NCBI GenBank assembly: GCA_017506865.1
Contig: JAFCMP010000224.1
Coordinates: 124,001 to 188,000, forward strand
Direction of reading: 5' to 3'
DNA length: 64,000 nt
DNA from: Tribonema minus
Lineage: Eukaryota > Sar > Xanthophyceae > Tribonematales > Tribonemataceae
Below are positions 8,401 through 52,000 of the stretch, piece after piece (positions within the stretch are counted from its first letter, which is position 1; each line of letters starts with the position of its first letter). Both the position numbers and the translations under genes were made by a program. The notes below the pieces were generated by a model. It saw only the letters and a list, made by a program, of their open reading frames with translations. It did no database searches and had not been told where the DNA came from.

Positions 8401-10132
8401 ATTTATCCTCTTGCGCCCCCAAGCATGCATACCATCATGAGCTGTTCCACTGCACGCCTCAGGAGCTGTGACCGCGGCCGCCGCAGTGGTGGCTATTTCT
8501 GTGAGGCCACGCCAGACACTCATACCTATTTTGTGGCCATGCGTGTGCATGCCGCCTGCGGATGCGGTGGAGGTCTCTGGCTAGCTCCGTGTTTTGTGGC
8601 GGGCAGTGGCACACTGTTAAGCGGTATGCCCGTGAACTCCAATCCACGTTTTTGTCACCACTGCTGCTGGTCATGTCATCGCCCGTGGTGGCAGCGCATC
8701 CTGACAGAACTGCGGCGGCGGTGGCGCGCCTACCAGTTGTGGAGAGGCGGCTGCTCGCCAGCTGGACTTGTAAGTCGTATGATCATCACTACAACAAATT
8801 GCCACTGCCTGCAGCACCGCAGCGGCGTCGGCATGCCTATCAGTACATGGAGGTGATGGCTCGCCAACTCATGCACTAAGTCTGTGAACCACGTCCTTGT
8901 AAGCAAAGCTTCCCACTGCCCTGTGCTCGCGCAGAGCATCCTGACGCAGCTGCGGCGGCGGCGCTGCGCATACCAGTACGTGGAGGTGATGGCGTGTCCT
9001 GGCGGCTGCGTGAATGGCGGCGGGCAGGTGCGGCCAGCGCAGGAGACGCCGCAGGCGATGCGTGAGCGGACGGTGCGCGTTGGCGGCATCATGCAGGTGA
9101 GCACTGCCGCTTCACTAACTTCAACCCTGATTGAAACCCTGGAGGAGGCGCCGCAGGCAATGCGCGAGAGGACAGCGCGCGTCGGCGGCGTCATGCAGGT
9201 GAGCGCTGCCACTTCACTCACTTGAGGTTGGTTTTCTAACCTAACATCACATCTAATTTAAAAACCCTAAGCAGGAGGCGCCGCAGGCGATGCGCAAGCG
9301 GGCGGCGCGCACTGGCGGCGTCATGCGCGAGAGCACTGGCGCTTCCTACTTGAAGTGTTGTAGAAAGCACCTGTTCGACGTCAGCAAGAGCATTGTGCAG
9401 TGCTGCTAGCTCCCCATTTCCTGTCCTCAACTGCTGCACAGTCGCAGAAGAGCTGATCAGCTGATGTTTGAAGCACGCAGCCGTGTGTACGCATGTCATG
9501 TGTAGTGGCCGCAGTCGCCGCTGAAGTGTAGGGCACCTGCCATTTCTGGCAAGTAGATAGGCACGCCTTTGGTCAATGACTAGCGTTCAAGGCACAAGAA
9601 AGCTCTCGGCCTGCAGTTGTATGCACAACAGCATAGGTATGCCTCAAGTGCACATTATCATTGCGGACCAAACATCCTTGCTCAGGTGACTTTCAGAGCG
9701 CGTGCGGCGACACGCATGAACGAATAGCGGCGAGCGTCAGCACTTGAGGTCCATGTTGAACTTTTCGCATACAGCCGTGCCTGCTGTACCACATACCGGG
9801 ACAACAGAAGGACTTTGCATGCCAGGGCAGAAAGCCTTTTTTTCAAAGGTGTAAAGGCAAGCACTCAGAGCATATGAGAGTACCTGACCTTGTCGTGTGC
9901 AATGAATAGTGTCTGAGTTGCGTCGGTGCTCAATATTTTGCCTTTTGCGTGTCTGGTTGTTGTTTTGCAGGCTGTGCCCTCGCTCGCGCAACCCGACGAT
10001 AGCCCTTTAGTGCAGTGGGTGCTAGGCCCCGGCGGCGCAATGCCATTGGACAGTGCCGCATCCGCACTGCATACAACGTTCCATGCGGTGCCGAAGCTAG
10101 AGGCCACCAACTCGCTGCTGGCACGGTGGTAG
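5404..10132 (+). CDS. NAR1: Cytosolic Fe-S cluster assembly factor NAR1 (IOP1/NARFL, iron-only hydrogenase-like)
   Basis: Five phase-0 exons (5404-5574, 5823-6647, 7476-7787, 8935-9096, 9971-10132) encode about 543 residues. NAR1 delivers Fe-S clusters to the CIA targeting complex in the cytosol. The N-terminal cluster cysteines are all visible: PSQAC in exon 1 and CLACSGC at the start of exon 2. The H-cluster-type cysteines are present too: SACPGFVCY and [10 protein letters not shown] in exon 2, and the pair in [13 protein letters not shown] in exon 4. The protein ends in Trp, as in other NAR1 proteins. An Ala/Pro-rich insert (about 45 residues) opens exon 3. The intron after exon 4 holds two further copies of the exon-4 end; the nearer one (9145-9198) has an AG before it and a GTGAGC after it, so it could be spliced in as an 18-residue cassette. 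Fragments of the exon-4 start lie upstream of that exon. Identification is firm; borders are manual. Confidence 0.9.
8690..8872 (+). repeat. Two decayed copies of the start of NAR1 exon 4 inside intron 3
   Basis: Around 8695-8745 and 8817-8865 the DNA resembles the acceptor end and first 60-70 bases of exon 4 (reading [13 protein letters not shown] and [13 protein letters not shown], against [19 protein letters not shown] in the real exon at 8935). The copies have lost the reading frame between them. They are explained by local duplication of the exon start. Confidence 0.7.
9037..9345 (+). repeat. Triplicated end of NAR1 exon 4
   Basis: Three units spaced by about 108 and 127 bases read [18 protein letters not shown] (real exon end, 9043-9096), [18 protein letters not shown] (9145-9198) and [17 protein letters not shown] (from about 9274). 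The first two are followed directly by GTGAGC; the third has lost the donor (CGCGAGAGC). Intron sequence between the units is related as well (GCACTG.CGCTTC). Confidence 0.85.
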
Positions 10133-11709
10133 CCCTTGTACATATTTCTGTGCATTTCAACACAGCCTGCGATCGGTGACTGTTGCCTTCTAATGAATTT
10201 GGAACAGTCATGGCGTGGTGCTCCGCACGCCGCGAACGCACCTGGCTGAGCGTTGTTGTTGACCATGCGCTTGTTGCTAGCAGTGAGCTTCGACAATAGT
10301 GTTGCGTGCACGTGGTGCCTGCCTTCAGCACAGCGCCGCGGCCCTCTTTGCTGGTGAAATGTGCATATTTGTGTACTTCGAGTGTGTAGCGGGGTGTGTC
10401 GCAAAGCACTACATGGCCACACTTGCACAGGTGGCAGCTGTTGCCATTGTCGTAATATTATCACATGTTACAACAAGCAGATCCACCAGGCTCAAGGACC
10501 GCACGTTTGCAACGTGCACTGAAAATGTTGTCGACAGCACAGGCATATACCTTGCACGACGCAAGTGTAGTCATCAGCATGTATGTGCTGTGCGCGCTCA
10601 CATTACTGTTGCCTGTGTTCATGTCAGCATCTGCTGCTTCAACAAATGATGTAGGCTCATGAGGCCGCACAAGTTATTGGTTATGTAGCCAACTGCAGAC
10701 GATGCTATAATGAAAGCACAGAGCACAGCCGCTGCTCATCAAAGTCGCACCAGCAGGGATGCGTAGCAGTCTATTGCCCGCCTGCGGGTTGCTACACTGC
10801 ATCATGGCGGCGGTAAACAGGGACTGAAACACTTTTCTTTAGTGTTAAGATTGAGTGGCTGCGCCGTGCTGGAGCCGTCGCTCTATGTAGTTTTTGCGCC
10901 TTGCTGGTGTGGCACTGCAGCACTTTCTCTCGAGCTGGAAAAGTGCTGCTCGCAGTGCTATGGAGATGCATCAGGTCTCCATTGTGATAGCTGCTGAATT
11001 GTTGGAGCCATTGTGAGTTGAGGTGAGCTGATAAAGGTGATGGTTGAAGCGCGCCGACAAGTGTGAGGACGAAGAACTCAGATTCGATCAAGCACACTAC
11101 GCCACTCTGAAGTCAACAGGGGCATGCAAGCTTCGGTGTCTAACCTCAGCGTCACCTGTTCAAGCAAAGCATACTGCGCGGTGGTCGACCTCTGCGGTGC
11201 TTCGCTGTGACAAACTATGCGATCTCCAGAGTAAGTGATACATGCAAGGGAGCAAACAGCTGAGGCACTCATGAGGAAGGTCCTCAACGCTCTGCATGCA
11301 CAACTCGCCAAGTCCATCAGAGCTAGTGAAGGTCATCATGGGCCAAATGCTCACCCAGCGCCAACCGCGGCACTGTCATTACCAACGCAAGATAAGCACC
11401 AAGGTACAGAAAAGAGCATGCGCGTCACCTCCATCAACTGCCACTTTTTTTTGGCTCCGCTGGAATTTTTCACGAAAAACCGCCTCTCCGAGTCTGTCTG
11501 CACCGCCAACATACAAGCCGTGTGCCGCATATACACGGGCCATCGACAGCAGAAACAGCCAGCACAGTGGCATACTGCACTTCAAAGCGTCGAAGCAGTG
11601 GAAACCAGCCAACAGGACGCGGACACAGAACCGGGTAGCGCGTCGACAGATCCGAGAGAGCGAGCACGGCGGTGAGAGAGACACAGAACAGCGACCTCAG
11701 CGGCGCAAG
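10133..11709. other. Intergenic region
   Basis: Between NAR1 and the two-exon hypothetical gene. No conserved protein or RNA recognised. The composition is AT-richer than the adjacent exons. Confidence 0.5.
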
Positions 11710-12952
11710 ATGGCGACAGAAAAGATCGTGCCCTCGGAGGTGGATCTGCTGCTGGCACTGAAGATTATCCGGGCGGAGAACCCCGATTACGGGACAGTGA
11801 GGCTTGCCCGGGAGATCGCCGAGCAGCGCTCGGTGAGTGCAGAATACAGCGCGCATGCCGCAGCGCTGCCCCCTGCTGTCTTGCTGCAGTTCTGCCTTAC
11901 CTTGCAGTTGCTGCTGTAGAGGCTTGCTGCTTTGTGCATCGCGCTCCTGCGACGCCCAACGCCTTCTGACAATGTGCTGCCGCTGCGGCTCCACGACTCG
12001 CGGTACAAATGCGGCCTGGTGCATCGCTGTAAGCTACCCTTTATCTATGGCTGAATTCCACAACAAATGCCATGCAGTATAACGCAAAAGTGCTGACTCA
12101 ACTGGACCTGGATCTGCTGCGCGTCATGAGTTCTGCCCCATCGTCACCTGCGGCACTGCATCTCTGTCTGTCTTTCAGGAGTGGGCCGTCTCGGATGCGA
12201 GGCTTCGGAAGGTGCTGAAGAAGCACGACATGATCATCACACCATCGACGAGCCCTCAGCCATCCAAGCGCGCTTCGAGAATCGATGGCGGCAGCATCGG
12301 CGAAAACCCCTGGAGCGCCGAGACCCTGACCAAGCTGCTGCTCGACAAGGTGCCCGAAGCGGCGGCAGTGCCCGAAAATGTGCCCGAAGCTGGGCCAGAA
12401 GCAGTCGAGCCGTCTGTCGTGGAGTCAACGCAGGAGCAGCAAGAGGTCGCACCGGAGCTGAACTCCTCGATGACGCAGCCCGCTGCCGTTGACGCGCCCA
12501 CTGAGATCGAGGTGACCGCGGAACCGGCGCCTGTAGAGCCTCAGTCCGCGCCCGAGGACTCAGTCACCGCGGCGCCGGAACCTGCTGCTGTCGAGGCCGT
12601 GGCAGCGGAACGCTCACGCTCGCCCAGCGTGACGATGAAGGTCTTCTCGCCCTCACGCGCGGTGCCGCCGCCGCCGCTGGACGTCGCGGAGGCGGACATG
12701 TCGAAGCCGGCGGCAGCGGACGCCGCCGACACGCCGCGGCCCGTCACCGCTGCCAACACGCCCGCTGCGGCGACGGCACCGGCGGCAGCGCCTGAGGAGG
12801 ACGAAGCCAAGAGCATATTGGAGGGTGCCGATGCGCTTCGGGGGAAGGGGGGCCTGCCGGGCAAGGGGGGGATGATGCTGGCGGCGGTGCCGCCGGCGCG
12901 GCAGCGGCGGCGCGAGGGCGCTGTGTGCGAGATCAACTGCACCGTTTCGTGA
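11710..12952 (+). CDS. Hypothetical protein with N-terminal helix-turn-helix-like segment and acidic Ala/Pro-rich tail
   Basis: Two phase-0 exons (11710-11832 and 12179-12952) encode 298 residues. Residues 1-57 (MATEKIVPSEVDLLLALKII onward, ending in WAVSDARLRKVLKKHDM) look like the short winged-helix-type module seen in various algal and fungal proteins, in which one helix follows an IR..NP..G motif and a second helix ends in RLRKVLKK. The remainder is low complexity, rich in Ala, Pro, Glu and Val, with an RSRSPS stretch and a basic RQRRRREG patch near the C-terminus. The junction is GCTCG then GTGAGTG, with the acceptor TCTTTCAG. I do not recognise a named family; a nuclear DNA- or protein-binding role is only a guess. 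Confidence 0.6.
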
Positions 12953-14593: not shown

Positions 14594-17500
14594 CTAGCAC
14601 AAGCCCTGAATCGCTTGCGACTGCAGCGCATACTGCGCGTCCCACTGGCTAATACCGGCCGCCAAAATCGGACCTCCCCCCAGGCATATGTCAAATTCCG
14701 GGCCCCCGTACAGGGCAAGCAGCTGATGCGGCGTTATGGCTCTCTCTGGCTTGTCAAACTCAAGATGGAGCAAGCCGCCTCGCAGCCGTACGGTCCCCGT
14801 CTCTCTGCCCGATCGGTAGCGGACCTGCAAGCGCGCGGGGGGCAGTGCACAGCGGCGTTGAGCGTTGATGCAGAGGTCACAGCAGCGCTCAGTTTAGTAG
14901 GCGTCGAGGCGAATGATCTTGGTGCTGATGAGGCACGCGCGCTCGCGCTGCAGACTGCGCGCTGTGATCGACTCAATCTCGATGATGCACAGGTACCAAG
15001 ATGACAAATCAACCCCTTTTTGAACAACAGTTTTTTTTTTTTTTTTTTGAACAACTTGAGCGTGCGAAGCTATGCTGAACAGTACAGCCGCGCTGAATCG
15101 TCGTCTGCAGATGAGGCATGCTGCTGCGTCAGCGTGCATGCAGTCCGCTGGCAGCACGCGCTATTCGCCCCACGCGGCGATGTGCGTTGAGTTAGGACTT
15201 CATTGACGTCAGTAATGTGATCAGCAATGTTGCGGCGGCTCTCCCTGGCGCCTGTCCCCCTGCCACCAAACCCTAACCCTAACCTTGTTGCAGGCAGGTC
15301 AATCTCATCTGCACGCACACGCCACGCCCAACACACCACCAGTTCACTTCTGCAATGTGCTGCATATGCCAATCAAGGTTCTTTCGCATGTTCGCTTTGA
15401 CCCACACCCGAACCCTCGCCCTAACGCCATTGCAGCCCTGACCCCAATGCCAGCCCTTATTCTTGTCCTACCCTCACATCAGCTCGCGTGGTACTGCACG
15501 CGCATCGCACGCCCCACAGCGCAGCGCGCGCAGTGCCAATTTTGCTAATACTTACCCGAGCATTGGTATCCATGGCAATGAGACTAGGCGCAGCTCGCCT
15601 GATGGTGCACGCGCGATGGCGCGCCCCTCGCGCAGCGCGCGCGGCGCCGACCCTAACCCCTAACCTTAACCCCAACACCACCCCTAACCCCAGCCGCAAC
15701 CCTATCAACACTCAGACTCGCGTTGTACTGCACGCGCATGTCGCGCCCCTCACGCAGCGCGCCCCACTTACACCTCAGGTACTCATCACCCTGACCCGAC
15801 CCCGACCCTACCCATTACCCAGACTCAGACTCGCCTTGTACTGCACACGCATGGCGCGTCCCTCGGCCAGCGCGCGCGGCGCAGCGCCCGCGCCCCACGC
15901 GAACGCCGCCGCGTCCGCCGTGAGCGCGCCGCACATGAGCGCGGGGTGCTCTGTTCCAGGCACGACGACGACGTCGCCTGAGCGCTGGCGCTTGGCGCAC
16001 ACGAACCACTTGGCCGCCATGTTGGCGATGCGCGCCTTCTGGCCGAGGGTGTAGAGCTCAACGCCCTCGTGGGGGCCGAGGCGCGCGCCCGTCTGGCCGC
16101 ACACAAAGTCCCCTGCGCGCGGCGGGCGGGGAGGGGGGGGGGGGGGGGGGGGAGGGGTTAGCTTCCCCGGCTAGGGCGTGGCGGGGGGGTCCCGTAAGTG
16201 GAGAAGATGGGGGGTCAGCTGCCTCGGCGCCGCTCGAAAATGCGCGTCTGACTTGCACGCAATGTCGTCTACGCGTTCGCGCGTTTGATGAGGGGAGGGG
16301 AGGGGGGCACCTTTCCCCGGGGTGATGCGTGCAAACGCGCGCCGCTGCGCACCAGAGGGATGCAGCACAGCCCGCCACGCGCGCGGTTGGCTGCTGTTGA
16401 AGTTGGCATGGTGTGCGGCTTACGTCACATCAGCGAGTACTTCAGCCACCGTGAAGTTCAACATCACGATAAGAGCCAGAAGGACGGTGCAGAGGTCAAG
16501 GGTTGCCACCTCACCGGGCGTCGGCATAATGTAATCTCAGACTACTAATCTGAACGTCCATGAAGTTCACCATCACGACTAAACTTCAACATCACGACCA
16601 GAGAACAGGTTCAAGGGGTCGACAACTCACCGGGCGTCGGCGTGATGTACTGGCTCAGGAACCCGCCGAAGCTCCTGCGCTGCCCCACAAAACAGATGCC
16701 AACGCTATCCTTCTTGGCCGCGGTGACCAACCCCGCACGCGCCGCCAGCTCCCGCACCTCCCCCTTCATCATCCCCCCAAGGGGAAAAATGACCCCCCTG
16801 AGCGCCTCCCAAGGAACGGTCGCCAGGAAGTAGCTCTGGTCTTTGATGGGGTCGACGGCGGCGCGCAAGCGCGGCGGGGGTCCCTTTAGCCCTAGTCCTA
16901 GTTGTTGCCCTAGCCCTACTTGTTGCGGTGCCTCTAGCCCTAGCCCTACTTGTTGCGGAGGGGGGTGGAACAGCTGAGCGTAGTGGCCGGTGGCGAAGAG
17001 CGCAGCGCCGTGCGTCGCGAGCGCGTGCGCGCGGAACGCGCCGAATTTGATGCGCGCGTTGCATAGGGCATCCGGGTTCGGCTGCGCGCATGGGAGGCGG
17101 GACATGTGGCTTAAAATTAAGGCTGGTGGGCAAGGGATTGTAGGGAGAACTGGCGATTTAGACTAATGGGGATTTTAAGTGTCGCCTGCACCAGGACCAG
17201 GCCAGAGCGAGATCGCAAACTCCCAATGCATTTAGTAGACCAGGTCAGTTTCGGAAATGGCTCACGAGGACAATGCAGTGCACATGCGGTCCATAGCGCT
17301 TAGGTGTCATCAGCAACACGACGCTTTGGCATCACACGCACTGCCGCCTCTGAGCATGCCCCGAGCCGCAGCCGCAACTTCATCTATGACTTCAACTTCA
17401 ACTTTGCATTAGCGACGCCATGCCGCAGTGCCACACATCACGTGCGCCGCGCCTGCAGCCAGCGTGCACGCAAGCAATGCAGGATCGCGAACAAGTACAA

Positions 17501-19080
17501 CTCGTGTATGTGTGCATAGCGAGCTATGTTGGCTAATCGACATGAAGGTGAAAGACCCCCGTGCGGAAAGATTGCGCAGAGGAGAGTCACTTCACACAGC
17601 TGCGCAGTGGCAAAGTTGAAGCGCGCAACCAACGGACGCGGCCGTCCAAATGGCCTGGCAGCTCAACAGCATACTTCATCTGGCCGGAACCAGAACCCAC
17701 CGTGTTGCCTTGGCTGAAGACATCCAGGCTAGGCGCGAACACGTCATGCCAGTACTCCTTGCTGAAATTGACGGAGTGGCAGGGGATCTGTAACTGCCGG
17801 CACACGCGCTGCACGTCGGCCCAGTCGGCATCCGCGGTGCACGCCTCGCGGCCCTCCTCGTCGGAGCGGTCCCAGTTGCGCATGTGCACGGCGACGACGT
17901 CATAGCCCTGGAGTTGAACATGAAGTTGAAGATGAAGTCGAACATGAAACTGCAGCGCGCTGAAGAATCTGAGTGATTGGAGAGTGGCCGGCGTATATAG
18001 TTCTACCTAGAGGTGAGATTACACGCCTTGCGTATGCGCACGGCAATGACGTCGTAGCCCTGCAGTGGAACATGAAGTTGAACGTGAAGTTGCAGCGTGC
18101 TCAGAAAGTGAGCGATGAGACGGTGGCCCGTATGTAGTTGTACTTGCAGTTGAAGTTACATGCGTTGCACGCTTCTTGATCGTTTACAACCGGGTTCCGG
18201 TGCACATCCAGCCCAGAAAGCTCCCAAAAGCCTAACGCTTACCCTACCCTTGTCCTAACCCATGCGGAGCAGGCAATGCTCGCATGAGAGCAGCGTGCTT
18301 GCATGTGACCTAGCTGCCATGTATATCCTAGCTACCGCATACAAAGTGGCATGCTTGAGAGGTGCAGCTATCCTTCAGCGCTCGTTACTTGCTGCCCTTG
18401 AAGGCGTTTTGCAGCCACCAGAGTCTTCGAAACGCAACGATGGTGGTGCTTGGTGGACAGAGGGGCCCGTCTGATGGCGACTGGCGCCAGTGCACTGGCA
18501 GTGCACTGGGAAGCGTTTTTTTTGCTTTTGTCACCACGCACAAAATGCACATCTTTGCTGAGCTGTGGTACACTCGCGGCGCTTTTTGTTAGCAATGTTG
18601 GAGGTCTAGATGCCCAGTCAATTCAATGCGGACATCATCAGCAGGGGCCTCTCCATCGCTGCTGATGCAAGATCTACAGAATAAATTCTGAAACGATTTC
18701 ATGTACTCAAGTGAATTGACCATTGACTTTGAATGGAAGAAAACAATTGACCAATTGACAGGTGTGTGCACCATTTGCTGCTACTTCACTACTCTGAGGC
18801 AGCCCGCCGTTCCTACTTGTAGTTCAACACAGACACTTTCTGTAGAAAAGCATTGAATCTCTTAATAAATATCAACTTCAGCCAGCATTAAGTTCATTCG
18901 GCTGACCTGCTGTTTCAGCAGATAGGCCGTCACTGACGAGTCCACGCCGCCAGACATGCCCACGACAACTCTCCTCCCTTGTCCTGCCGGTGTCCTGGTT
19001 GCAGCTGCTGTAGCCAGCGCTCGGCATTTCAGGCACCTCCACACGGGAGCAACGATGCGCCGGCGCGCAAGAGGCTGCAT
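14594..19080 (-). CDS. mnmA: tRNA-specific 2-thiouridylase MnmA/TRMU, organellar
   Basis: Five exons on the minus strand (18907-19080, 17701-17907, 16631-17081, 15847-16112, 14594-14824; phases 0, 0, 1, 0) give about 442 residues. MnmA thiolates the wobble uridine of Lys, Glu and Gln tRNAs in mitochondria (and plastids in some lineages). Visible are the PP-loop VVVGMSGGVDSS, the substrate loop GNTPNPDALCN with the first catalytic Cys, KDQSYFLA, the second catalytic Cys in VGICFVG, the YTLGQKARI central domain and the CLGGGPI C-terminal beta-barrel motif. The first 35 residues (MQPLARRRIV start, Arg-rich, no acids) look like a mitochondrial presequence. Exon 3 contains an in-frame insert of about 35 residues built from a CCCTAG-type repeat. 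The start is divergent from the WW-protein gene, 114 bases away. Introns 1 and 4 contain copies of the neighbouring exon edges. The identification is secure. Confidence 0.92.
15031..15048 (+). repeat. Poly(T)/poly(A) run in MnmA intron 4
   Basis: About 18 consecutive T on the plus strand (A on the sense strand of MnmA), flanked on both sides by TTGAACAAC-type sequence. It lies inside the largest MnmA intron. The origin (slippage or retroposed tail) cannot be decided here. Confidence 0.7.
15269..15284. repeat. Telomere-like (CCCTAA)n in MnmA intron 4
   Basis: Two and a half CCCTAA units; several looser CCCTAACC and ACCCGAACCC variants follow through 15420-15830, inside the largest MnmA intron. 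Confidence 0.8.
15488..15895 (-). repeat. Four tandem copies of the MnmA exon-4 end and donor
   Basis: The true exon end (plus-strand coordinates about 15833-15895, core TGTACTGCACACGCATGGCG) recurs at about 15719-15765, 15603-15650 and 15488-15540, each as a GTACTGCACGCGCAT-like core followed by a CGCAGCGCGCGCGGCGC-like run, spaced 114-116 bases. Three copies keep the GT donor context on the minus strand. The spacers hold CCCTAACCC-type sequence. Confidence 0.8.
16127..16157 (-). repeat. Poly(C) tract (sense) before MnmA exon 4 acceptor
   Basis: A G run of more than 20 bases on the plus strand, so C-rich on the sense strand, ends about 15 bases before the acceptor CGCAG of exon 4. It occupies the place of the polypyrimidine tract. 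Confidence 0.75.
16883..16962 (-). repeat. CCCTAG-type minisatellite inside MnmA exon 3
   Basis: Repeats of CTAGCCCTAG with CTACTTGTTGCGG spacers encode an in-frame insert (VGLGLEAPQQVGLGQQLGLG) between the HYAQLFH and AVDPIKDQSYF motifs. The family has only a few residues here. It could be translated, since the frame is open throughout, or be a tiny intron. Confidence 0.75.
17881..18145 (-). repeat. Duplicated acceptor and start of MnmA exon 2
   Basis: The exon-2 start with its acceptor (17881-17945) is repeated at about 18023-18085 inside intron 1 (GCGCACGGCAATGACGTCGT against GTGCACGGCGACGACGTCAT). Flanking intron sequence (AACATGAAGTTGAA and GGAGAGTGGCC-like blocks) is repeated too, so the unit is about 135 bases. 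Confidence 0.78.
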
Positions 19081-24754: not shown

Positions 24755-24815
<61 letters not shown>

Positions 24816-29434: not shown

Positions 29435-32400
29435 TCATGGAGTATGGAACAGGGGGACCACCATCCCCGGCTCTCTCCGCACGGTGGCGCCAGCGTCCCC
29501 CTCCTGCTTCTCCATTAAGCACAGGTACCACCGCATGGAAGCAAGCTGCTCGCGCCACTCGCTGCCGTTGCTGCTGCCGCCGCCGCCGCCGTCAGCGCCG
29601 TTGTTCAGGCCGAGGGCCGCGCACAGCAGCGGGAACTTTGCCGGAACCAGAATGTGCTTGAAGTCGCCGAGGTGCACCGCCCTGCAGCAGCGCTCAGACA
29701 TCACACAATAACAACAACAACAACAGAAATATTTCCGAAGATCCGCGCTCAGCGCCATGGTGAAAAGGCACTGCATCGTCTGCGGCGTTGGCGGCTGGGC
29801 ACTCTGTCATGAGCCAGGATGCGCTTGCACCTGCGATGCAGTGGCAGCGATGTGGCGCGCTGCTGTGTGGACATGACGGATACATACATACGCCCCGTCC
29901 TATGGGCAGCCGGTGGCGCGCGCCTACTGCATCATGTCAAGGTGCCCGTGCAGCGCAGCCGCCGCCGAGCACATGCGCACATTGCAGCATGCGCAATGGC
30001 AAGAAGCTCCAGCAGGAGGTGACGCTCCCATGCACTTGACTAACAGTGCAAGGCATATGCGCATTTCAGCGGGATCCTCTAAGAGTGGCACACATCGCCA
30101 GCCTTCGCACCAGGCGCGTCGACTGTAGGGTTGCGATGCATCATGCGCCTGCGCTTGCGTGTGGCTGCGTTTGCAGCTGATCAACTTAGAGCTTAAGTGA
30201 CTATCATGAAAGGGGCCAAGAAGCTCACAGAAGAAGTGTGCTTTGCATGCTCTGGGGAGGATATTCATGACACCGCAGCAGATCTTACGCGCCTGCATCA
30301 TCTCCCACACTTGACGACCAACAGGGACTGGAAAGATGAAAATGTGTTTTTCCTTTCATACATCCTTGCTCGTGCTTATATACAGCCCAGCAGCAGTCAG
30401 GATGTGAAAATCCCTGACATTCAAGTTGCTCAGCTCGTAATGAGCGCTGCCATGCAGATTTTTTTTTTGTGCCGCTGCCTCAACGCCCCACACTACCAGG
30501 CTGGACTAAGGACACTTGGTGAGCCAAGGCTGGAGTCATCCTACTCGGGTGGTCACAAAGGGCAAATACCGCAGTGCTGTCGCAACGCGAGGAGCATGCG
30601 CTGTTGCGGCTGCCAGCTCACAGCTGCGAACTGAAACATACTTAGAGGCACCTTCCAAAACTGCACTGGCCGCTGGAATGCAATGTAGGTATGTACAGCC
30701 GTGATCAACTCGCAGAAGGCCAAAATCATACACTTCAAGTCACACTTCTTGAAGGTGACGCACCTGCCCTGCGGACTGTCAGCCAGGGTCACAGCATAGG
30801 TGCCACTGGTCCTGAACGCTGCTGCATGCTGCTGCAGCCCAGGCATCTCTTTCAGTGCCACGCACAGCTTCTGCAGGGACGGGCTGTCGAACTGTATTGC
30901 AGCGTACAGGCTCCTCTCCTCGTTGACCACACAGCTGCTCAGACGTTCAGATAGCAAGATGAAGTGCACGTGCAAGCGGGCAGAAGGCTTGAGGGGGCGT
31001 CTCAGCGCATGCAGTGTTCATTCAACCATTGAAAGCACCCAGTGGAGGAGGCGAAGTGCAAAGTTGGATGAGCGGTGGGGAGAATCCAGCAGTGACTACC
31101 GCTTTGTTGATGAGCTTGAGAGCTCCTGCAATAGGCGAGGGCGTGAGGTGCCGGTTGCCATTTTCTGAAGCGGTGGAACCCAGGCATGGTGGCGCAGCAG
31201 GCAACGGGTAGTGGGCCATACAAGCATTGGGAATGCAGTTACACAGCACGCACTAGGGAGTGCGTCGGAGCACGCGCTGCACATGGCGCGGCGCATGCAA
31301 CTTGGACGTCAAGCCGTGAATTTCAAGATCTGAACTTCAAAAAAACTGGCATCTCTCAGCTTCAACTCTTTGCACTCGCCGCCTGACCTGAGCGATACTG
31401 CGAGCATGTTGTCACGTTCTCACCCCATGGCTCAACTGCAAGTTTCAACTATGCATCAAATATCAGCTAAAGCTCTGTGCATCCCATCTCACCCCAAGCG
31501 GTCCGCGCGGCCGCCGCCCCACGCGAGCATGCCCTCTCACGTGCCATTTGGCTCACACTTCAACTTCAATTTCAAGTGTATGTACATCCATCTCACCCAA
31601 GTGCGTCCGCGCCGCCGACACCCCACGCGAGCATGCTCTCACACCCCTTGCAGCTCATCTTCAACTCCAACTTTTCAAAATCTCAACTTCAACTCTCCAC
31701 TCACCTGAGCGCGTCCGCACCGTTGACGCCCCACACGAGCATGCTCTCGGACGGCGGCACGCCGGCGCCGCGGCCCGCGAGCCGCAGCGCCTCCGTGCGC
31801 AAATTTCAACTTCAATCACCTCAACTTCAACTCATCCACCTGAGCGCATCCGCGCCGCCGACGCCCCACGCGACCATGCTCTCCGACGGCGGCACGCCGG
31901 CGCCGCGGCCCGCGAGCCCCAGCGCCTCTGTGCGGCGCAAATTTCAACTTCAATTGCCTCAACTTCAACCCATCCCACTGAGCGCGTCCGCGCCGCCGAC
32001 GCCCTACGCGAGCATGCTCACGGACGGCGGCATGCCAGCGCCGCGGCCCGCGAGCTGCAGCGCCTCCGTGCGTAGCACAAGTTCAACTTTGCACCTCATA
32101 TCAACTTCAACGCTGCCTCACCTGAGCGCGTCCGCGCCACCAACGCCCCACGCAAGCATGCTCTCGGACGGCGGCACGCCGGCGCCGCGGCCCGCGAGCC
32201 GCAGCGCCTCCGTGCGCAGCGCCAGCCCGAGGCGCTGCACGAGCTCGAAGGGCAGTGGCAGGAACGAGGAGAGCGCGACGTGCAGGCGCCCGCCGCGGCG
32301 CGCGATGAAGGTGCAGTCGCGCAGCGCGGCGTCGGCGCGCGCGGCTGCGCAGAAGCGGTCGTGCTCAGCGAGCAGCGGCGGCGGCGCGCTCCTGTCGGGC

Positions 32401-35400: not shown

Positions 35401-38400
35401 TACATGCCATATGAGTTATCTATATCTCAGAGGCGCGCCCGAAGCATCCATCATCAAGGCACGTCGTCTCAGTGAGGCATTGCTCAGCGACACGGCCGTC
35501 CCATCACCCGACTGCGCATGTACCAGCTGTTGTTCACCGGGTGATTGCACGGGGGGGGGCAATGTCGGGGAAGCGTACCAGAGGCTGCGTAATGCAGCGG
35601 GGGGCAAAGGTACCTACCCCTAGCACTATTACTGACCTGATCCTAACCCCAAGCCGGGTAGCACCGATGTCGTTGTGTACATTGGTTGCACAGACGCAGA
35701 GAGCATGATCTCACAGACGCAGAGAGCATGATCTCACAGACGCAGAGAGCATGATATCATGTGCGCGTGCTGGGAGCGACGCCCGCTCTGAAAGTGCAGT
35801 TGAAGTTGAAGTTGATGGCGTTTTGTGGCCTCACCTGACACTCGGGGTACTCCGGGTAGAACTCTGTGCAACACTGCAGGAGGGGCGCAACAGAGCATCA
35901 GCAGCAGCCAGGCAGGGCCATATAAGCGGCGGTGCACACAGAGGCATACGCAATGCATACAACTACATGGTATACTCAGTGAGGTGTAATGATGTACTTC
36001 AAGTATGTAATTGGAAGCACCCAGCTCTCCAACCTGCTGCTTCTGTTGGGTACGCAACGTCAAATGTTGCTGTGCAAAAGCGCACGTGACTTGGAAACGT
36101 GTTGACATCGTGGACGTGACCTGCGTGAGGTAGGTCAGTGTGCTGACAATTCCGGACATGCTCCATCAGAAACGCGAGGGGTTTCAAAGCAGACCAATTC
36201 AAGTCGCATGTAAGCGGCGAGGCACTCTTTCTACTTGAAAGTGATGAAAATTGGCCCACTCTGTCCTTCGTAAACTCTATACACAGGTGCGTGTTAGCTG
36301 CGAGCTCAAAGAGGTGCATGTCAGCTGCAAGCTCACAACAGTACCTTGCATCTAGAAGCAATCTCAATGCGACCTCATCATGATCCTTTCCATTGCAGAC
36401 TGGACACTTGAAGTTGAGAACTGTGCGCGGAACGCACCGGTTACGCGACGGTAAGCAAGGGGAGCTTATTGAATGCATGACACGCTACATCCCTAAGCCT
36501 ACGCAACTCCATGACCCAAAAGTTGAAGTTATGATTTGAGCTTGGACTTTATTGAAGGAGGCAAATCTCAAACTATAGCGTGGGCATCGGAACTCACTGG
36601 CCATGCGACAATGGGCAGGGGTAGGTTCTCAAACGCCAGGTACGCCGTCTGCAACACGGAGACTCTCCAGAACCACAATTGGAGCTATGAATTGTGCACT
36701 GGAAGCTGTGGAGTTGTGCTCTGCAACTCACCGGCCACGCGACGCTTTCTATGACCAAATTTGAAGCTATGAGCTGTGCACTGGAGGAAGTTGTGGAGTT
36801 GCGCACTGCCACTCGTCGCCATGCGACACTTGGCAGGGGGAGTTGCTCAAATGCTAGGCACGCAGTCTGCAGCGCGGATACTCTATGAAACTTGAATTTG
36901 AGTTGCTCACATGCTAGGCACGCAGTCTGCAGCGCGGATACTCTATGAAACTGAACTTGAGGATAAAATTGAAGTTGAGATTTGTGCACTGGAGCTCACC
37001 GGCCATGCGACGATCGGCAGGGCAGACACTTTCTACGACCACTATTACCGTTATGAGTTGTGCACTGTAAGTTGTGCACTGCAACTCACCGGCCACGCGA
37101 CGATTGGCAAGGGGAGGTTCTCAAACGCCAGGCACGCTGTCTGTAGTGCGCGCGTGAGCGGCGAGCTCAGTATGATCTGCGGCTTGCAGGACGCGACCCA
37201 CTTGCCCTGCAGCGCCGCCGCCTGTGACTCCCCCTTGGCGGTGAGCCGGCTGTCCCTGCGAATGAGACGCACGCACGAGGAGGCAGGGGGGGGGGGGGGG
37301 GGGGGGGGTTGAAGTTGGCGTGCCAGCGCCTCAGTGAGCGTGGTGTGGCATGAGCCTCTCTGTGGCATGAGCCTCTCTGAGTCAACAGGCAGTGCTTCCT
37401 GCAACAGCAGCGCATTCCTGGGAGGCGAGCAGCTGCCGTCAATCAAGGCGTGTTTTGAACGGATGTACAAGTAAAGTAGGACACGCCGGCACATGAATGA
37501 GTAGTGCATGTTTGCGTGCAGTACAAACCGGCCAATTGGCATCACTCATTACATGAAGGGACTGCCTAACTTTCAGGAGCACCCTGACAATGATGATGGA
37601 CACGCTCTGAAAGTGATATACACGCAGCTGCCACTATCGAATGCTTTTGAATTACGTTATTTAGACGTGGTGGACACTGTCAAATGTGACTACTCGTGAG
37701 GACGGTAAAAGACTGTGCAACGGCCAGCAGTGACTATGTAGTGACGATGATCATGAGCAGCTGTCGCACCTGACGTCCAATTTGAATACTACTAAATACA
37801 TGTAGTGAGCACCGTCAAATGCTTCTAATGTTCTTCTTGAAAGAACAACATTGAAAGAAGAACATCGAACCACATAGCAGGCAGTGCCACATGAGATGAG
37901 TGCGGAGACCAAGAGCCTGCCAACAGTGACTGATGATGATGATGTTGATGGATGCGATATAAAGAGCAGAAGACCGACGCGAGTCGTGTGTTGCTACATA
38001 GAAGAAATCGATTGTGTCGTGATCTGAGTACCGGCAGGTGTAACTGCCGTAACCGTCAAGCGTGCGAACGGCAATGAGCATGTAACTGCCATAAACCCCA
38101 ACAATGAGCAGCTCTCGTACCTAACTTCCTGTGAAAGGTCCATCTTCATTCCCTCCGCCAGGGTGTTGGCAATGGACTGCCCATGCCGTACGAAGACAAC
38201 CACCTGAAGGCCCAACAGCACCATGTAGAGGACCGAGATTGTGCATGTAAGTCAGTGTGTAACTGCCGATGTATTTATGTTATTTGCTTGGAGTTGGCAG
38301 GTATCGGCGATGGCTGGCGCAGTGATCTGGATCAGTTGCCGCAAAAAGAGTTCCGACACTGCAAATTGGTGATGGACGCTTTAAGGCTTAGAGACGACAC

Positions 38401-43019: not shown

Positions 43020-46000
43020 ATGGTGCCGCAAGGAGACCTGCTCAGCAGCGCGGAGAGCGGATGGGCATCGCCGCCTGGCATAGTCACTCTCCACGTAGAG
43101 GGCATGATGTGCCAGAAAAACTGCGGCAGCACAGTCCACAAGGCTCTCATGTCTGTGCCTGGCACTGTGCGAGCGGAGGTCTCATTCGCCGACAGGCAGG
43201 CACGTGCCTGGGGCACGGCCGTCGCCAAGGCCCTGGTCGACGCAGTCGAGGGCGTCGGCTTCGACGCCTGCGTCGCTCCCGACATTACCATAGACGTGGT
43301 GGGCATGATGTGCCAAAAAAACTGCGGCAGCACTGTGCAGAAGGCCCTCGCCGCTGTGGCCGGCGTCACGAAAGCCGAGGTGTCGTTCAAGGATGGCCAA
43401 GCGAGGGTGTGGGGCTCGGCGCCTCTGGGGGAGCTCGTTCAGGCGGTGGAGATGGTGGGCTTCGATGCATCCCTGGCGCCGGATGTCATGCTCTACGTGA
43501 CAGGCATGATGTGCCAGAAGAACTGCGGCAGCACCGCGCAGAAGGCGCTGGCCTCCGTGCCAGGCGTCACCACCGCGGAAGTCTCATTCCAGGACTCCCA
43601 GGCAAAAGTCTGGGGCACAGCGGCGCCAGACTCTTTAGTCAACGCCCTGGAGGCCGTGGGCTTCGAAGCGGTGCGGTGGTGGCAGCGCCCCGCAGACACG
43701 CCGGCGGCGACGCGCGCCCCCACCCCCTCCTCCCCCGACGCAGAACCCCCTTTTTCCCCCGCCGCCGCCCCCGCCGTCGCGGGCTGCGCGCTCGGCGTCT
43801 TCTCCGTCTCGGGCATGACGTGCGCGGCGTGCGTCGCGAAAGTGGAGCGTCACCTGCGCGCGCAGCCCGGCGTGCGCGGCGTGCGCGTCGCGCTGCTCGC
43901 CGAGAAGGCGGAGGTCGACTTCGAGCCGGGCGCCGTCGCAGAGGCCGCGCTCGCCGCCGCCGTCACCGACCTCGGCTACGCGGCGCGCCACCTGCGCACG
44001 ATCGCCGCCGGCGCGCCCGCGGGCCTCCGGGAACTGTCCGTAACGATCCCCGCGCTTTCCACGGAAGCGGACGCTGCGCAGCGCGTGGAGGCGGCGCTGC
44101 GCGGGCTGCGGGGCGTCACCGCGGTGAACTTGTCTGTCGCGGCGGCGACGGCGACGGTGGGCGTGGACACGGGGAAGGAGGGGGGCGCGGTGGGGCTGAG
44201 GGACGTGCTGGAGCATCTGGAGGCGCTCGGGTATCAGGCGTCCGCGTGCAAGGCGTCGAACGACATTGCCGCGATGGGCGCGTCGCAGGTGCGCGGCATA
44301 TGTGTGTTGAAGTTGTGCGTCGGGAGGCGTGTGTGTTGTGATGGCGATGCGGAACTGTTGTCGATGCTGTCTCGGCTCTTGCTAGCGGGCACAGCCGGGC
44401 ACAGCCGTAACTGGCCAATGACCGCAATGTGACAGCAGCTGCTATAGGTGAGACGTAAGTTGATTGGTTCAGTGCTGCAGACTTGACGCACGAGGCCTGT
44501 GCACACAATCTCAAGCCTTGGTCCAGCATCATGAGTGTCTTGAGGCCAGCAAATGCATGACAGGGCATATGCGCTGCCGCTTTCTGGGTTAGGGTTAGGG
44601 TTAGGATTAGGCTTTAGGCATGCAAACACCCCATTGGCTCAACGCCCAGGAGATCTCATCTCCAGCTAGCTACGAAACATGCTATCTATTGACCGTTGAG
44701 TCGCTCACTGTATGCTGCAGGTGCGGAAATCTACACCCTTGTATGTACTTCAAGAACTGTATACTTCAAGTAATGTTGAATTGGGAATATATGTTGATTT
44801 TTAACAAAACACTCATATGTGCAGGCCACGCAGGCGCCAGCTGAGCCAATCTTGGTTCATGTTGCTTGTGCCCCGCAGGCACGCGAGTCGGCGGAATGGA
44901 GGCGCCGCTTCACGTGGGCGTTCTGGCTGACGCTCCCCATGATGATGCTACACCTGTTCCACATGTACTTTATGCACACCAAGCTCATGATGGGCTCCGC
45001 GTGCCACGGACATGTGAGTGTTGCCTGTGGGTGTATGCATGTATGGTGCTGTGTGTGGTGGTGGTGTTGCTAGCGGAATAGAGCGGTCGTTTTGCAGGGG
45101 TAGTGTGTGGCATCGTGCTGGTGCTGCTGGTAGTGGAAACATTGCAGTGGATGTTGAGAGACCTGTCTCCGCTGCTTTGAAGCACATGGCGGATGTGTAT
45201 CATGCTTTTGTGCTGCGTGTGATGCTGGTACCAATTTCAAGTGATCTCTGTGCGACGAGGTCTGCACCTTATCTTCAACTTGCGCATGCAAGAGTGACGC
45301 GCTCTGAACAACGTCAAGCGCACGAGTAAGCTGTGCCGGCACAACAGGCCTACATGCAGGTCACCAGGTGTACATCAGGCAGCACAGGAAACGAACTGCA
45401 GTCAGCACTGGCAGGGTGCACTCATATAATTATGTTGAAGTTCTGCAAATGCACGTTTGACACTTCAACTGGCACTCCCTCGTAACCTCATCTTGCCACA
45501 TCTGCCGTCTGCCCTGCTGCCCTCAGTTGACGTGGGCGGTTGGCCTCAGCTGGGCCCTGGCTACACCGGTGCAGTTTGGCGTTGGCGGTCGGTTTTATAA
45601 GGCGGCGTGGCGAGGCCTGAAGCATAACAGCCTTGGGATGGACATGCTTGTTGTGGTGGGGACCAGCGCCAGTTATATGTACAGGTTAGAACACATCTAA
45701 ACTTCAAGTGTGTACAGTTGAAGTTTGGTGTGCGGGTGCAGAAACACAGTTCGACATCGGATGGCAGCTTCACAATGAAGGCTGGCGTGGCCTGAAGCTC
45801 AACCTTTACATTCATGAATGTGGATTTGGTTTTGCAACCTGACGTTGGTGCTTCGGGTCGGAGCGACAGATTGGTCGCACGTACTTGAAGCCTGAGGCCA
45901 ATAGACGAGTGGGTACGGGTCAGTGTATGGCTGATGCAGGTGTTGGCGCGCAGATAGCCTCATTAACGATGGACCAGTTCTACCCATACCTACATACCTG

Positions 46001-49000
46001 CTCCACCTCACTTCAACGCTGCTGGAGCGCTTGGCCTCTTGGAGCTCTCAAAGTTGCCTGATGGGCATCTCGATGTTTTCACTGCCGCCATGCGTCATCC
46101 ATCCTGTTGCTGTGGTTGGCAGGCGCTGGATACTGCATGCACTGATGGTTATCGGCTGTTGCGCACGCGAACGTCGTGTCATTATGCTCCAGACTCTTCA
46201 ACTCAAACTTCACCACTGACACGTCGCAACAGTTGGATGTCGCCACAGTTCCGCCGCTGACCATGAGCGCCGCTTCCGCCGTTCGCTGCCAACTTCAACC
46301 TTGCAGTTGCCTGGCGCTGCTCATGGGCTGCGCGCGCGACAACTTTGTCCCGCACGCCGACTTCATGGCGGGCTCGATGCTCATCACGTTCATCACGCTT
46401 GGCAAGTACCTCGAGAGCGTCGCCAAGGGCAAGACGAGCCAGGCGCTGTCGCTGCTCATGCGCCTGCAGCCGCACAGAGCGCTGCTGCTGCAGGGGGAGG
46501 GCGCCACCGAGACGGAGCGCGAGATTGACATTCAGCTCGTGCAGCCGGGGGACGTGCTGCGCGTGCTGCCGGGGTCGCAGGTGCGTCACTTTTGAACTTG
46601 AAGTTTGAATTGAAGTGTAGAGCATTTCTGTGGAGACGGAGCGTGAGATCGACATACAGCTCGTGCTGCGGAGGGACGTGCTGCACGTGCTGCGGGGTCG
46701 CAGGTGCGTCGCTCTTGAAGTTGAGGTTTTGCACAGTTGTGCGCGAGATCGACATACAGCTCGTGCAACCGGGGGACGTGCTGCGCATGCTGCTGGGGTC
46801 GCAGGTGCGTCACTGTTAAAGTTGAAGTGCTGGGCAGTATTCTACCCAGGGGGGGCGGGGGGGGGGGTATCGATGGCTGGTGTAGCCGGGGGACGTGCTG
46901 CCAGGGTCACAGGTGCGTCACTCTTGGAGTTGAAGTTGCAGCAACGATGCAGAACTCTCGCGCCGCTGCACACGGCACTCACGATGTCATGAACGCACAT
47001 CAGCGCTGCTTGCTTGTGGCACACACACACTCCACCGATGTGCCATGCAGCAGCTCATGAGCTGTGCAACTGCGTGTCGACTGCCCGCACACTGCGAAAT
47101 GCGCCATGCGCCTGCTCGCGAAGCACCCGTACGTAAAATTGACTCCAACACTAGTGCTCTTCGACGTTGATCGCCGTGAAAACTGCAGCCGAGGTACCCT
47201 TGTTGTTCAAGTTCACTCACCTGCGCTCTTCGACCTCAAATCACAGGTGCCCACGGATGGCATGGTGGTCTCTGGCACGAGCTACGTGGACGAGAGCATG
47301 ATAACAGGGGAGCCGCTGGCAGTGCTCAGGCAGGCTGGCGATGAGGTCATTGGTGGGACTGTGAACCAGAACGGCATGCTGATCATGAAAGCACACAAGG
47401 TGCGTCACCGCGCTGTGTAGAGGTGTACTTGAAGTTGCTGGGCTGGTGAAGTTGAATTGTCGCTTTGTGATGAACTGTCGGGTGATTGAGGCAGCACGCA
47501 GGGGTCTCAAGCCTCAGAGCAGCATGTAGGCGTCTCGAGCCTCTTGAAGCATTTTGAGATTAAGAAGGCACGCAACGCGCGTCTGGTGCCATCACAAGAG
47601 ACTGTTTTGTGGCTCCTTTGCAGTGTACTTGAAGTAGTTGGACTGTTGTTGAAGTTAAATGTGCAGACCTGGTGATAAGCTGCTGCTGTCGTGAGTTCGG
47701 TGATTGGAGCACCAAAAGGGCCTCAAGCCTTCACAATGTCTATTGGCCAGCCACGAGTCCATGAAGTCCGTCTGCCTCAAGCTTGGCACGTGTGGTGTTC
47801 ACTCGAAGAAATTGGAGTGCTCTGAGCAAGCACCTTTGGGCAAGCAACATTGTCTGCTGTGTAAGTGCACCTGGACTGCTTGTACCACTGCAGCGTGATC
47901 GCTACTGCCGTGAGTCAGAGGTGGTTAGGGTTAGGGTTTGATCAGAGCAGCAAAATCGCGCACAAGGTGCGTTTCCATAACTGCCAGGTTTGCGCAACTC
48001 ATGCCTGTTCCCATCCTGGCACCAATCATCTGTACCATTTCTGCTGTACACTGGTGATCACCACCAACCATGATCATTGCCAATCACGGGTCATCACCAC
48101 CAAATTGAGCATCACCACATGAATTTGTCAATGAGAACCATCGTTACGCATTGCCTTCCTCCCGCAGGTTGGCGGCGATACTCTCATCTCACAAATCGGG
48201 CGCCTTGTGGAGGAGGCTCAGATGAGCAAGGCCCCGATACAGGAGTTCGCGGACAGAGTGGCGGGGGTCTTCACGCCCACCGTGCTGTCCCTCGCGCTGC
48301 TCACCTTTGTGGTGTGGTACACTGCCGCGGAGGTACGTAGGTATATGTACAATTTGTTGCTTTATGCGTTTGCTGCATGTATGTACATGGGCACTGCAGA
48401 GCAGTCTCGGCGTGTACACACGCACTGCGGAGCACTGTGCGACGTGGTTGTTTCTTTGATTTGCACTTGGCATCTTTGCGATGCCCCGCACGACGGCGCG
48501 GAAAGTTGCCTTGCACTCACCTGAGTGTTTGGGTAAGGGTTAGGGAGAGGGTTAGTGGTCAAGGGCCACACTGTCGCACGGCGCTACGCACCTGTGCACG
48601 GTCACCTCGGATCAGCCTGCGTTTGCAGACCAATGTCACAATGCCAGCATTACGGTCAGGGTGAGGTTTAGACCAATGTCACCACGGCAAACCGGCAGAC
48701 TGGCAGCGAGCGTGATGCGCACTGAAACCTGAACTTCAACTTCAACTCCTCATTGCGCAGAGCGGCCTGGTCCCCGACTGGTGGATGGCGGAGAGCAGCG
48801 AGGACCCGTTCCTGTTTGCGCTGGTGTTCAGCATTAGCGTGGTGGTGGTATCATGCCCTTGCGCGCTGGGTCTTGCAACGCCGACGGCGGTCATGGTCGG
48901 GACGGGGGTGGGGGCCGCCAATGGCGTGCTCATCAAGGTATGCATTTATTATAATAGCTGCATGAACGTTTAGTTCTCACATGCAGCAGTGACAACGTGA

Positions 49001-52000
49001 AGCAGCAATTCAAAATGCTATGTACATCCACGCATGCAACAGGTCCAGTGCACCTACAAGCCTCGGTACATGTGAGTCATGGCAATCAGACAAGGGCAAC
49101 AGTAATAATAGCTCAAGCACGACGCGGCGATGCGTGCGGCGGCCCGTCTTCCTGAACGAACACACACACACCCCTTTTCCCCTCATAAACGGGCGATGTG
49201 CGCAGCGGCGCAGCTCCCTGAACGAACACATGCGATGATGCTCATACCCCCCCCCCCCCCCCTTCCCCCCCCCCCCCGCAACCTCCCCCTTACCCCCCTA
49301 CCCCCCCACCTCCCCTATTTACACAGGGTGGCGCGGCCCTCGAGCGCGCGCACCAGGTCACCAGCATCATCTTCGACAAGACGGGGACGCTCACCACGGG
49401 CAAGCCCGCGCTCACGGACGAGGTCTCCTTCGGCGCCGCCGAGCGCTGGGGCGACCACGCCATGCTGCGCCTCGCCGCGGCGTGCGAGAAGTGCAGCGAG
49501 CACCCTGTGGGGCAGACGGTTGTGCGCGCCGCGCAGAGCCTCGGCCTCGCGCTGCCCGCGGTGGATAATTTCGAGGTGAGGCCTGCAGGGGGGGGGTCTG
49601 AAGGCATGGATAAAGAGGGGGGGGGTAGGCATGTATTGTGGTGAGAGACGGGGGGCGGGGGGTTTGTAGGCATGGAGTGGTCAAAGATGGGGGCAGACGA
49701 TCGTGCGCGCCGCGCAGAGCCTGGGGCTCGCGCTGCCCGCGGTGGATAATTTCGAGGTGAGGGCCATGGGGGGTATAAAAAAAAGTCGTGGATTGAAGAG
49801 GGGGGGTGGCTTGTGTAGGAATGGGTTGGCGAAGATGTGTATGCTGGGGGGGGGCGGGGGGGGCAGAGCCTCGGCCTTGCGCTGCCCGCGGCGGATGAGT
49901 TCGAGGTGAGGGACAGAGGGGTGTGGCGCGTGGGAGGGGGGGGGGGGGGACTATAATTGCATGGGTTGGCAAAGATGTGTTTTGTGTGGGTCGTAGGCGC
50001 AGAGCCTCTGGCTCGCGCTGCCCACGGTGGACGCGTTCTAGGTGAGGGAGAGGGGGGGATTATCAAGTCGTGGATTGAAAGAGGAGGGGGGGGGAGGTAG
50101 GCATGTATCGGTGCACAGTCTAGGGCTTACTCTGACAAAGTGGGCCGCTTTGACGTTTGACAGTCCTGTTGCTGCACACCACGGCTACATTAGTTGTGAG
50201 CATGAACCTGGGATGCTGATGTTGTCATTCACTTGCGTGGATTCACTGCGCAGGTGGCCGCTGGTATGGGGGTGGCCTGCATGTACCAGGGCACTCGCGT
50301 TTTGGTCGGCAACAGAGCGTGGATGGCCGCCAACAGCGTAAAGGTCAGTATACGTGTACAGTTGTACTGCTGGAGTACACCTGTACCTTGCAACGACATG
50401 CACTGAACAATTTGGTTACAGCGATGGCTCTGGAAATGTTGCGCTGTTCTGTGTATTGGGCAAGTACGGCATAGTCTAGTCAGTCTGAGGGATAAAGCAT
50501 GTTCTGCATTCTGTCAACGCCTGCATATAAGTCAAGTACTCTGTATGCTTGCATACATACCCTTGTTTGCAATCACACCATGCATGCGATCTGTGTAGGT
50601 GTCAAAAGCAGAGGGCGGAAACAATCAGACCCTCGCAGTTACCCCAGAGTCAGCACAACTATGCACTCATAACAAAAGATTAACTCGTTGGCTTGTTGGG
50701 GCATGATTAGTGCGCATGTCTGCATCACGATGCCTTTCTTGCTCCGCTGCCGACTTGTGCAGGTGTCAAAAGTGGAAGAAAGACCGCCGTAGAAAACGCG
50801 GTGTCTTTCTTCTCACTTGTTCCTGCATCGCGTAGGGTTACGGCTAACCCTAACCCTAACCCTAAATCGCTGACACTGCGCATGCTCGTATCATGATGCC
50901 TTTCTTTCTTTTTACTCCACCGCAGGTGTCCAAGGTGGAAGAGAAGACCACCGTCGCGCTTGAAGAGGAGGGCAAGACAGCCATGCTCGTGGCTATGGGC
51001 CAGCAGCTGATAGGCGTCTTGGCAGTCGCCGATCAGGTCAAGAGGGAGGCCGCCAGCACGGTGGCCGCGCTGCAGCACATGGGCCTCAAGGCAAGTGCTC
51101 GTGCTTGACTGTGGCTGTATTCAGGATGGAAGTATGCTTGAAGTACATGTTTACGACTTCGTTGATGGATGATAGTCAGCCCCTCCGGTCAAAAGGGAGG
51201 CCGGCTGAGCTGCAGGACATGGGCCTCAAGGCAAGTTCTCGCGCCACAACAGTACATACCGTATGTATAGGCAGTATCGCCCTGCATATTGCCATGCTGT
51301 TGGTGGCTCAAACCTCACCATGAACCTCATGGGACCGCGCCTTTTGCACCATGCATGACTTCATGCATCTCCCGTGTGCATGTCGCCTGTTGAACTTTGT
51401 TCACCTCTTGAACTTTCCTGGCAAGTGTGGATGGTGACAGCCGACAACATTGCACGACTGCTAACGCCTCCTGTGTGCTCATTCCCTCTTGAACTTCCCG
51501 TCACCTCTTGAACTTTGCTGCAGGTATGGATGGTAACAGGCGACAACTCGCGCACTGCGCGGTCCCTGGGAAGGAACCTGGGCATACCGGCAGAGCGAAT
51601 AGTCGCGGAGGTTCTCCCGGCGCACAAGGCTCGCAAGGTGCGGCTGCAGTTGCACTTGCACTTGCACTTGAAGCTGCGTTTCGATGGTACTTGCGGTTCT
51701 GGCGGCAAGGCGCGATTTCGCTTGCCAATGCAGCTGTATGTTGCAGCAGTTGCACTTGCTCCGGCGAGCACGGCTTGCAACGGTGCGGTTGAAGCTACGC
51801 TTGCAGTTGAAGCCGTTTTGAAGGTGCCCAGTGGCTGTCAGAACTGCTGTCTGCCAACTGCAACTGCCGCAATTCTGTTTGTTTTTGCTTACGCATACCA
51901 CTTCTTGAACTAGCAGCTGCCGTGAGGTTGCTTCAGTAAGCTGATGAGGGGTCTGTTGTCCTGTCCCTCTTCTCTTCAGCATCAATGCTGGCCCTCGACC

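Follow-up and report, generated by a model that had tools for sequence, protein, structure and literature searches.

Exon-edge copies in introns of Tribonema minus and their probable origin in local duplication

In a stretch of 64,000 nucleotides of the Tribonema minus genome (158 Mb, 554 contigs), located on contig C224 at positions 124001-188000 and referred to here as the window, several introns carry copies of the edge of the adjacent exon together with its splice site. The question raised by this locus is whether such copying is a general feature of the genome and, if so, which process generates it. A sequence-only reading of the window had described the pattern in four genes (NAR1, MnmA, a histidine phosphatase and a copper ATPase) and had proposed a process that is systematic in the genome, runs continuously and acts always at exon borders. 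Exon-edge copies were found within and beyond the window, in roughly one in five tested introns. Their best explanation, to which we assign a probability of about 0.6, is a continuing neutral local duplication via break repair, probably enriched at exon-intron junctions.

Exon-edge arrays in the window

Exon edges in the window are predictions, placed with a trained gene predictor and by reading of the sequence. The predicted proteins gave Pfam matches to Fe_hyd_lg_C (Nar1-like), tRNA_Me_trans (MnmA), His_Phos_1 and HMA/E1-E2_ATPase; the Fe_hyd_lg_C protein is presumably Nar1. Alignment of each edge to its adjacent intron yielded copies at seven donor edges and three acceptor edges (identity 0.75-0.96), which reproduces the seven donor-side and three acceptor-side arrays counted before. 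Acceptor-side copying had been attributed to MnmA and the ATPase; each has one such array, and a third, previously unlisted, lies in NAR1. All 29 repeats with an offset below 3 kb in the window are direct and none is inverted (self-BLAST, E<=1e-3).

In NAR1 (plus strand), the exon tail ending at 9096 recurs at 9143-9210, with GTGAGC, and at 9271-9338, where the GT is lost (donor-side array, 9041-9345); the exon head at 8935 recurs upstream at 8691-8744 and, less clearly, at 8819-8860 (acceptor-side array, 8691-8985; 81.8%, offset 240), one of these two copies starting 14 nt inside the exon. MnmA (minus strand) contains a donor-side array at 15491-15877, with the tail ending at 15847 copied to 15762-15723, 15647-15606 and 15531-15491, a second one at 16448-16649, with the tail ending at 16631 copied to 16540-16507, and an acceptor-side array at 17876-18168, in which CAG and the head at 17907 recur at 18075-18028. 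The donor-side array of the histidine phosphatase (36407-37150, minus strand) comprises five copies, from 37022 to 36431, of the tail ending at 37090, four of the five with GT at the edge.

The copper ATPase gene (plus strand) has three donor-side arrays: at 46509-46937, with three copies (from 46635, 46741 and 46876) of the tail ending at 46580 plus GTGCGT; at 49509-50108, with three copies (from 49690, 49863 and 49997) of the tail ending at 49575 plus GTGAGG; and at 51024-51244, with one copy (51184-51244) of the tail ending at about 51094, possibly a GC donor (CTCAAG|GCAAGT). Its acceptor-side array (50710-50954) repeats the head at 50926 at 50759-50790. Alignment at two other ATPase edges, the acceptor 47247 and the donor 47398 (set one base short), gave no copies, and a search of the genome for a second haplotype of one ATPase region returned only the region itself and short partial matches.

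Occurrence beyond the window

Three further samples were analysed. The dynein set comprises 13 regions, in which spliced alignment to a few-intron dynein of the same genome delimited the exons and gave 52 GT introns; spliced genes and many dynein heavy-chain matches mark the genome as eukaryotic, and the best solved relatives of one dynein stretch are axonemal dynein heavy chains. The random set consists of eight 10-kb loci picked regardless of content, and chaperonin loci form the third set. The gene predictor was trained on the 52 homology-defined dynein introns and recovered 44 of 53 donors on its own training genes, with 73 called in range; results on predicted introns are therefore weaker than those on dynein introns. 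The recount of predicted introns (window, random and chaperonin loci) omits locus L054, which overlaps L053, and covers 97 introns and 108 arrays. Introns below 80 bp, introns with short flanking exons and non-GT introns were excluded from the intron tests, and low-complexity repeat pairs from array and breakpoint counts.

Among the 52 dynein introns, the exon tail was copied into the next intron in 14 cases and the exon head into the previous intron in 12 (p<=0.005), against 2 and 1, respectively, in antisense controls and 4 for the intron middle. The 97 predicted introns gave tails in 20/97 and heads in 14/97, with antisense counts of 1 and 3 and a middle count of 6/83. In the pool of 149 introns, sense copies are thus far above antisense copies both for tails (34/149 vs 3/149) and for heads (26/149 vs 4/149), and the excess over controls, also outside the window, agrees with the proposal that the pattern is systematic. 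Copies of either edge were present in 15/44 introns of the window, 6/34 of the random loci and 5/19 of the chaperonin loci. Some dynein genes have no copies at all, for example the gene on C537 (0/6 introns).

The orientation is predominantly direct, with 79 direct vs 2 inverted repeats in the 13 dynein regions and, at a looser cut-off, 99 direct vs 15 inverted in 142 exon-masked introns. The smallest offsets are unimodal, with a median of 134.5 bp and an interquartile range of 110-160 bp (104 of the 108 arrays), and show no frame preference. Copy identities from 0.72 to 1.0 fit a duplication that continues, as had been supposed. One tandem array (L062, extended region of C531, 13821-14859) has a 161-bp unit with about 98% identity and is apparently very recent.

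State of the copies

In 72 homology-defined introns, 28 donor-side and 26 acceptor-side copies were obtained, and the exact exon edge was reached in 28/28 and 25/26 of these; only one of the 54 has its start deeper than 10 nt within the exon. Of the copies that cover the splice dinucleotide, 22/27 retain GT (the other five having GC) and 22/25 retain AG, with a mean identity of 0.89-0.90; copies with fewer than 15 exon bases were excluded from these counts and from those of codon positions. Mismatches at codon positions 1, 2 and 3 amounted to.094/.093/.164 between exon and copy, and to.129/.157/.182 between copies. The third-position excess matches the synonymous change expected in the exon, and the copies themselves therefore seem to change evenly. 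Single-nucleotide gaps make up 20 of the 29 gaps in copies.

Selection might maintain such copies as decoys that regulate splicing, which would account for exon edges and splice motifs that are kept while the flanks differ, also from copy to copy (identity.818 vs.653; 37 pairs, 8 gene-and-side groups). A neutral simulation gave.838 vs.754 for the same comparison. The divergence at codon positions 1 and 2 (.094) is probably close to the exon's own synonymous change, frameshifting gaps are present, and the retention of GT and AG is close to the neutral expectation, all of which speaks against functional decoys; we regard them as highly improbable. Neither coding nor splice constraint, as functional duplicated exons should have, was found on the copies, which look dead and neutrally decaying, with no clear sign of selection.

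Edge preference

Where homology and predictor agreed on the edges, the arrays of the dynein genes comprised 34 at an edge, 9 in the interior and 1 in an exon, and 27 touched only edges without such agreement; the edge fraction accordingly lies between 34/43 (strict) and 61/70 (inclusive). Much of this could arise under uniform tandem duplication with no preference for edges, the border pattern then being a product of geometry and of the conserved exon half. Where introns measure about 500 bp and offsets about 135 bp, arrays must often span an edge, and edge-spanning pairs are easier to detect because their exon half is conserved. In uniform-duplication simulations with exon conservation, edge arrays made up a fraction of 0.58-0.62 when the density was 0.58-0.67 arrays per intron, and of 0.74 when it was 0.90; simulated exon-part identity (.862) also resembled the observed value (.866). 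Two settings with intron growth gave edge fractions of 0.71 and 0.49, and a five-fold edge bias gave 0.78. The claim that copying occurs always at exon borders was therefore too strong, since interior arrays exist and uniform duplication alone would place about 60% at an edge.

Tested against the uniform settings, the dynein fractions gave p 0.013 (34/43 vs 0.62), p 3e-6 (61/70 vs 0.62) and p 0.006 (61/70 vs 0.74). Segments from exon edges were also copied more often than segments from intron middles in the 149-intron pool (60/298 vs 10/135, p 0.0006), whereas uniform simulations with similar tail rates gave middle rates of.15-.18.

Several results weigh against break repair enriched at junctions. 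The denser uniform setting (0.74) is not rejected by 34/43 (p 0.29), and the values of 0.71 and 0.49 under intron growth likewise show that the size of the edge excess depends on the simulation. In exon-masked dynein introns, repeat coverage was.110 in the first 60 bp,.091 in the last 60 bp and.137 in the middle, with no edge excess, as uniform duplication would have it; for all 142 exon-masked introns, which retain the L053/L054 overlap and count a few introns twice, the values were.127/.081/.078, with the window set as the main source of the excess in the first 60 bp (bootstrap.027). Of the 27 arrays in the random loci, which have weak gene models, only 9 reach a predicted edge and 14 are interior. 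The observed middle-segment rate is below that of every simulation setting, edge-biased ones included, and therefore no model fits fully. Finally, telomere-like (TTAGGG)n runs, of which there are 92 in 283 kb (window, dynein, random and chaperonin loci), were considered as a repair scar and rejected, as they are not associated with arrays (19/92 inside array spans, p 0.42); in the horse, a few insertions of telomere repeats at breaks have target duplications (PMC7215372). Once geometry and exon conservation are taken into account, a moderate edge excess is left.

Breakpoints and unit structure

Pairs of at least 88% identity over agreed edges had a median exon part of 52 nt at 9 donors and 44 nt at 14 acceptors, and a median intron part of 12 nt and 7 nt, respectively. 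The homology ended on the intron side at most 12 nt from the splice junction in 15 of these 23 edges. The breakpoint filter requires more exon than intron sequence and was applied alike to neutral tandem simulations, which gave such short intron parts in 17/98 (8/45 and 9/53), or in 11/39 with filler insertions. Likewise, of the copies whose exon part was at least 0.9 identical, 15/26 had an intron flank below 0.7, vs about 18/66 in simulations. Identity profiles agree with short intron parts, though their fixed-shift windows lose larger gaps. The set is mixed, and some dynein arrays consist of near-complete tandem units. Length divided by offset was below 0.5 in 109 of 137 repeat pairs of at least 90% identity, non-adjacent multi-copy pairs included, compared with 34-48% of simulated pairs (at least 88%). 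Much of the pattern is thus reproduced by plain tandem duplication with neutral decay, our initial reading, which fails, however, to yield the short intron parts; with these and the middle-segment rate set against it, and geometry in its favor, uniform duplication without edge preference is possible but rather unlikely.

Short intron parts would also be expected if copying were linked to splicing or RNA, the intron-side boundary being set either by breaks where R-loops end at the junction or by RNA whose end lies at the splice site while it is bound. Intron-side ends cluster by the splice motif and exon-side ends vary, donors and acceptors are both affected, and copies from the exon interior are nearly absent. 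The mostly direct orientation, on the other hand, would not be required of captured cDNA, the intron parts are long in several arrays made of complete tandem units, and selection on tandem events would also explain the missing exon-internal copies. We consider this explanation unlikely.

The C508 region contains a pair of 67 exon plus 9 intron bases (98.7%, offset 198), and the C113 region a pair of 37 bp (100%, offset 139). Two 76-bp copies with 98.7% identity enclose a spacer that is itself a dispersed repeat with at least 46 matches (itself included; 40 of 214 candidates scored). This suggested a transposon, i.e. insertion of an introner-like mobile element at exon edges with long target-site duplications. 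This candidate lost ground when the other two spacers searched matched only themselves (repeated spacers, 1/3). The exon parts of 15-86 nt at the 23 edges (at least 88% identity) moreover exceed the 3-9 bp target-site duplications of earlier introner families, as given in PMC9860276, and insertion of a mobile element is very unlikely.

Proposed mechanism

The mostly direct orientation, the unimodal offsets, the lack of a frame preference and the neutral-looking decay together indicate local duplication at the DNA level. In the explanation that we prefer, genic DNA would undergo frequent local, mostly direct duplication, in which tens to about 150 bp are repeated some 60-200 bp away, sometimes with intervening sequence; the underlying break repair may be of the patch or staggered-nick kind, as in rice. 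Selection would purge duplications confined to an exon, since these would disrupt the reading frame. A duplication that straddles a junction would be tolerated if the exon-attached copy, presumably the one used, is still spliced; the extra copy would then become intron and decay neutrally.

Given the edge excess and the short intron parts, breaks or the ends of copying may be concentrated at splice junctions, which might be break-prone, conceivably at R-loop boundaries. The evidence supports, although it does not prove, more frequent duplication at junctions than in intron interiors and an intron-side end near the junction. In a stronger version, the intron-side breakpoint would be tied to the donor and acceptor motifs, mutation would be shaped by splicing or by the R-loops it entails, and the inward copying of exon edges would enlarge introns; this is a tentative proposal that we hold to be doubtful.

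Should local duplication regularly supply introns with exon ends and splice sites that look intact, the genome would lend itself to studying how decoys are passed over by the spliceosome, how introns lengthen and whether splice junctions are mutational hot spots. Gene finders will call false exons in such a genome, as our own predictor did with three array copies (46748-46804, 49697-49756 and 49867-49905 of the window).

Relation to known systems

In rice, tandem duplications are enriched among mutations of 50-200 bp and were read as adjacent-nick repair (PMC7971508). The duplications described here are likewise local, direct and of similar size, but many copies are separated by other sequence, and about a fifth of the tested introns carry an exon-edge copy, a feature that the accessible part of the rice report does not mention. 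A tandem duplication across an intron-exon boundary in potato RdRp (PMC4974935) resembles ours in that the unit holds an intron end, a splice site and an exon start; it is a single case that formed a new intron, whereas the present copies occur in many genes, at donors as well as acceptors, and within existing introns. The model of Rogers and Hellsten, as described in PMC4974935, explains intron gain via a duplicated AGGT segment; the duplicated segments here also contain splice sites but lie inside existing introns, and no new intron was shown. Introner elements share genome-scale repeats at exon-intron boundaries, but they consist of introns that resemble one another across many genes and have short duplications (PMC9860276, PMC7789003), whereas the copies described here each match the exon next to them. 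In the open-access literature, a coverage that leaves out most subscription journals, no description of systematic exon-edge copies in introns was recognised.

Additional sequence features

The window holds further local repeats. A multi-copy array at 31476-32220 (period 138 by Tandem Repeats Finder), in a predicted minus-strand gene, touches donor as well as acceptor edges of the gene model, and a local repeat in the ATPase gene at 51369-51547 (plus strand, offset 99, 79%) touches no predicted exon edge, the gene model being incomplete there. The repeat at 43083-43669, with a period of about 201 bp, is coding and not an exon-edge array; it falls within an exon predicted for the HMA region of the ATPase, which gave three HMA matches. 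The minus-strand predicted exon at 1175-1429 resembles the start of what we take to be PurH/ATIC.

The telomere-like heptamers TTAGGGT and ACCCTAA occurred 41 and 29 times, respectively, in 115 kb of intron and were absent (0) from the exon sample. A second over-represented hexamer in introns of the same loci is TTGAAG/CTTCAA: 18 of 83 matches to sense TTGAAGT lie in the first 40 nt of introns, and 15 of 54 matches to ACTTCAA in the last 80 nt, from which it is conceivable that intron ends might pair. TTGAAG/CTTCAA runs are 2.2-fold denser within array spans (p 4e-5).

GC-AG introns accounted for 14 of 100 spliced-aligned dynein introns, seven of them with AG|GC[AG]AG; the others may be alignment artefacts. 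The dispersed repeat at C508:333827-333947 is about 100 bp long with a tandem 30-bp part, and its matches (at least 46, including itself) are found genome-wide. Clusters of GTAAGT repeats on one strand are located at C179:225935-226540 and C90:851432-852721. The pattern GTAAGTGTAAGT has 54 forward vs 8 reverse matches in the genome, and a backwards-pattern control has 46 and 50.

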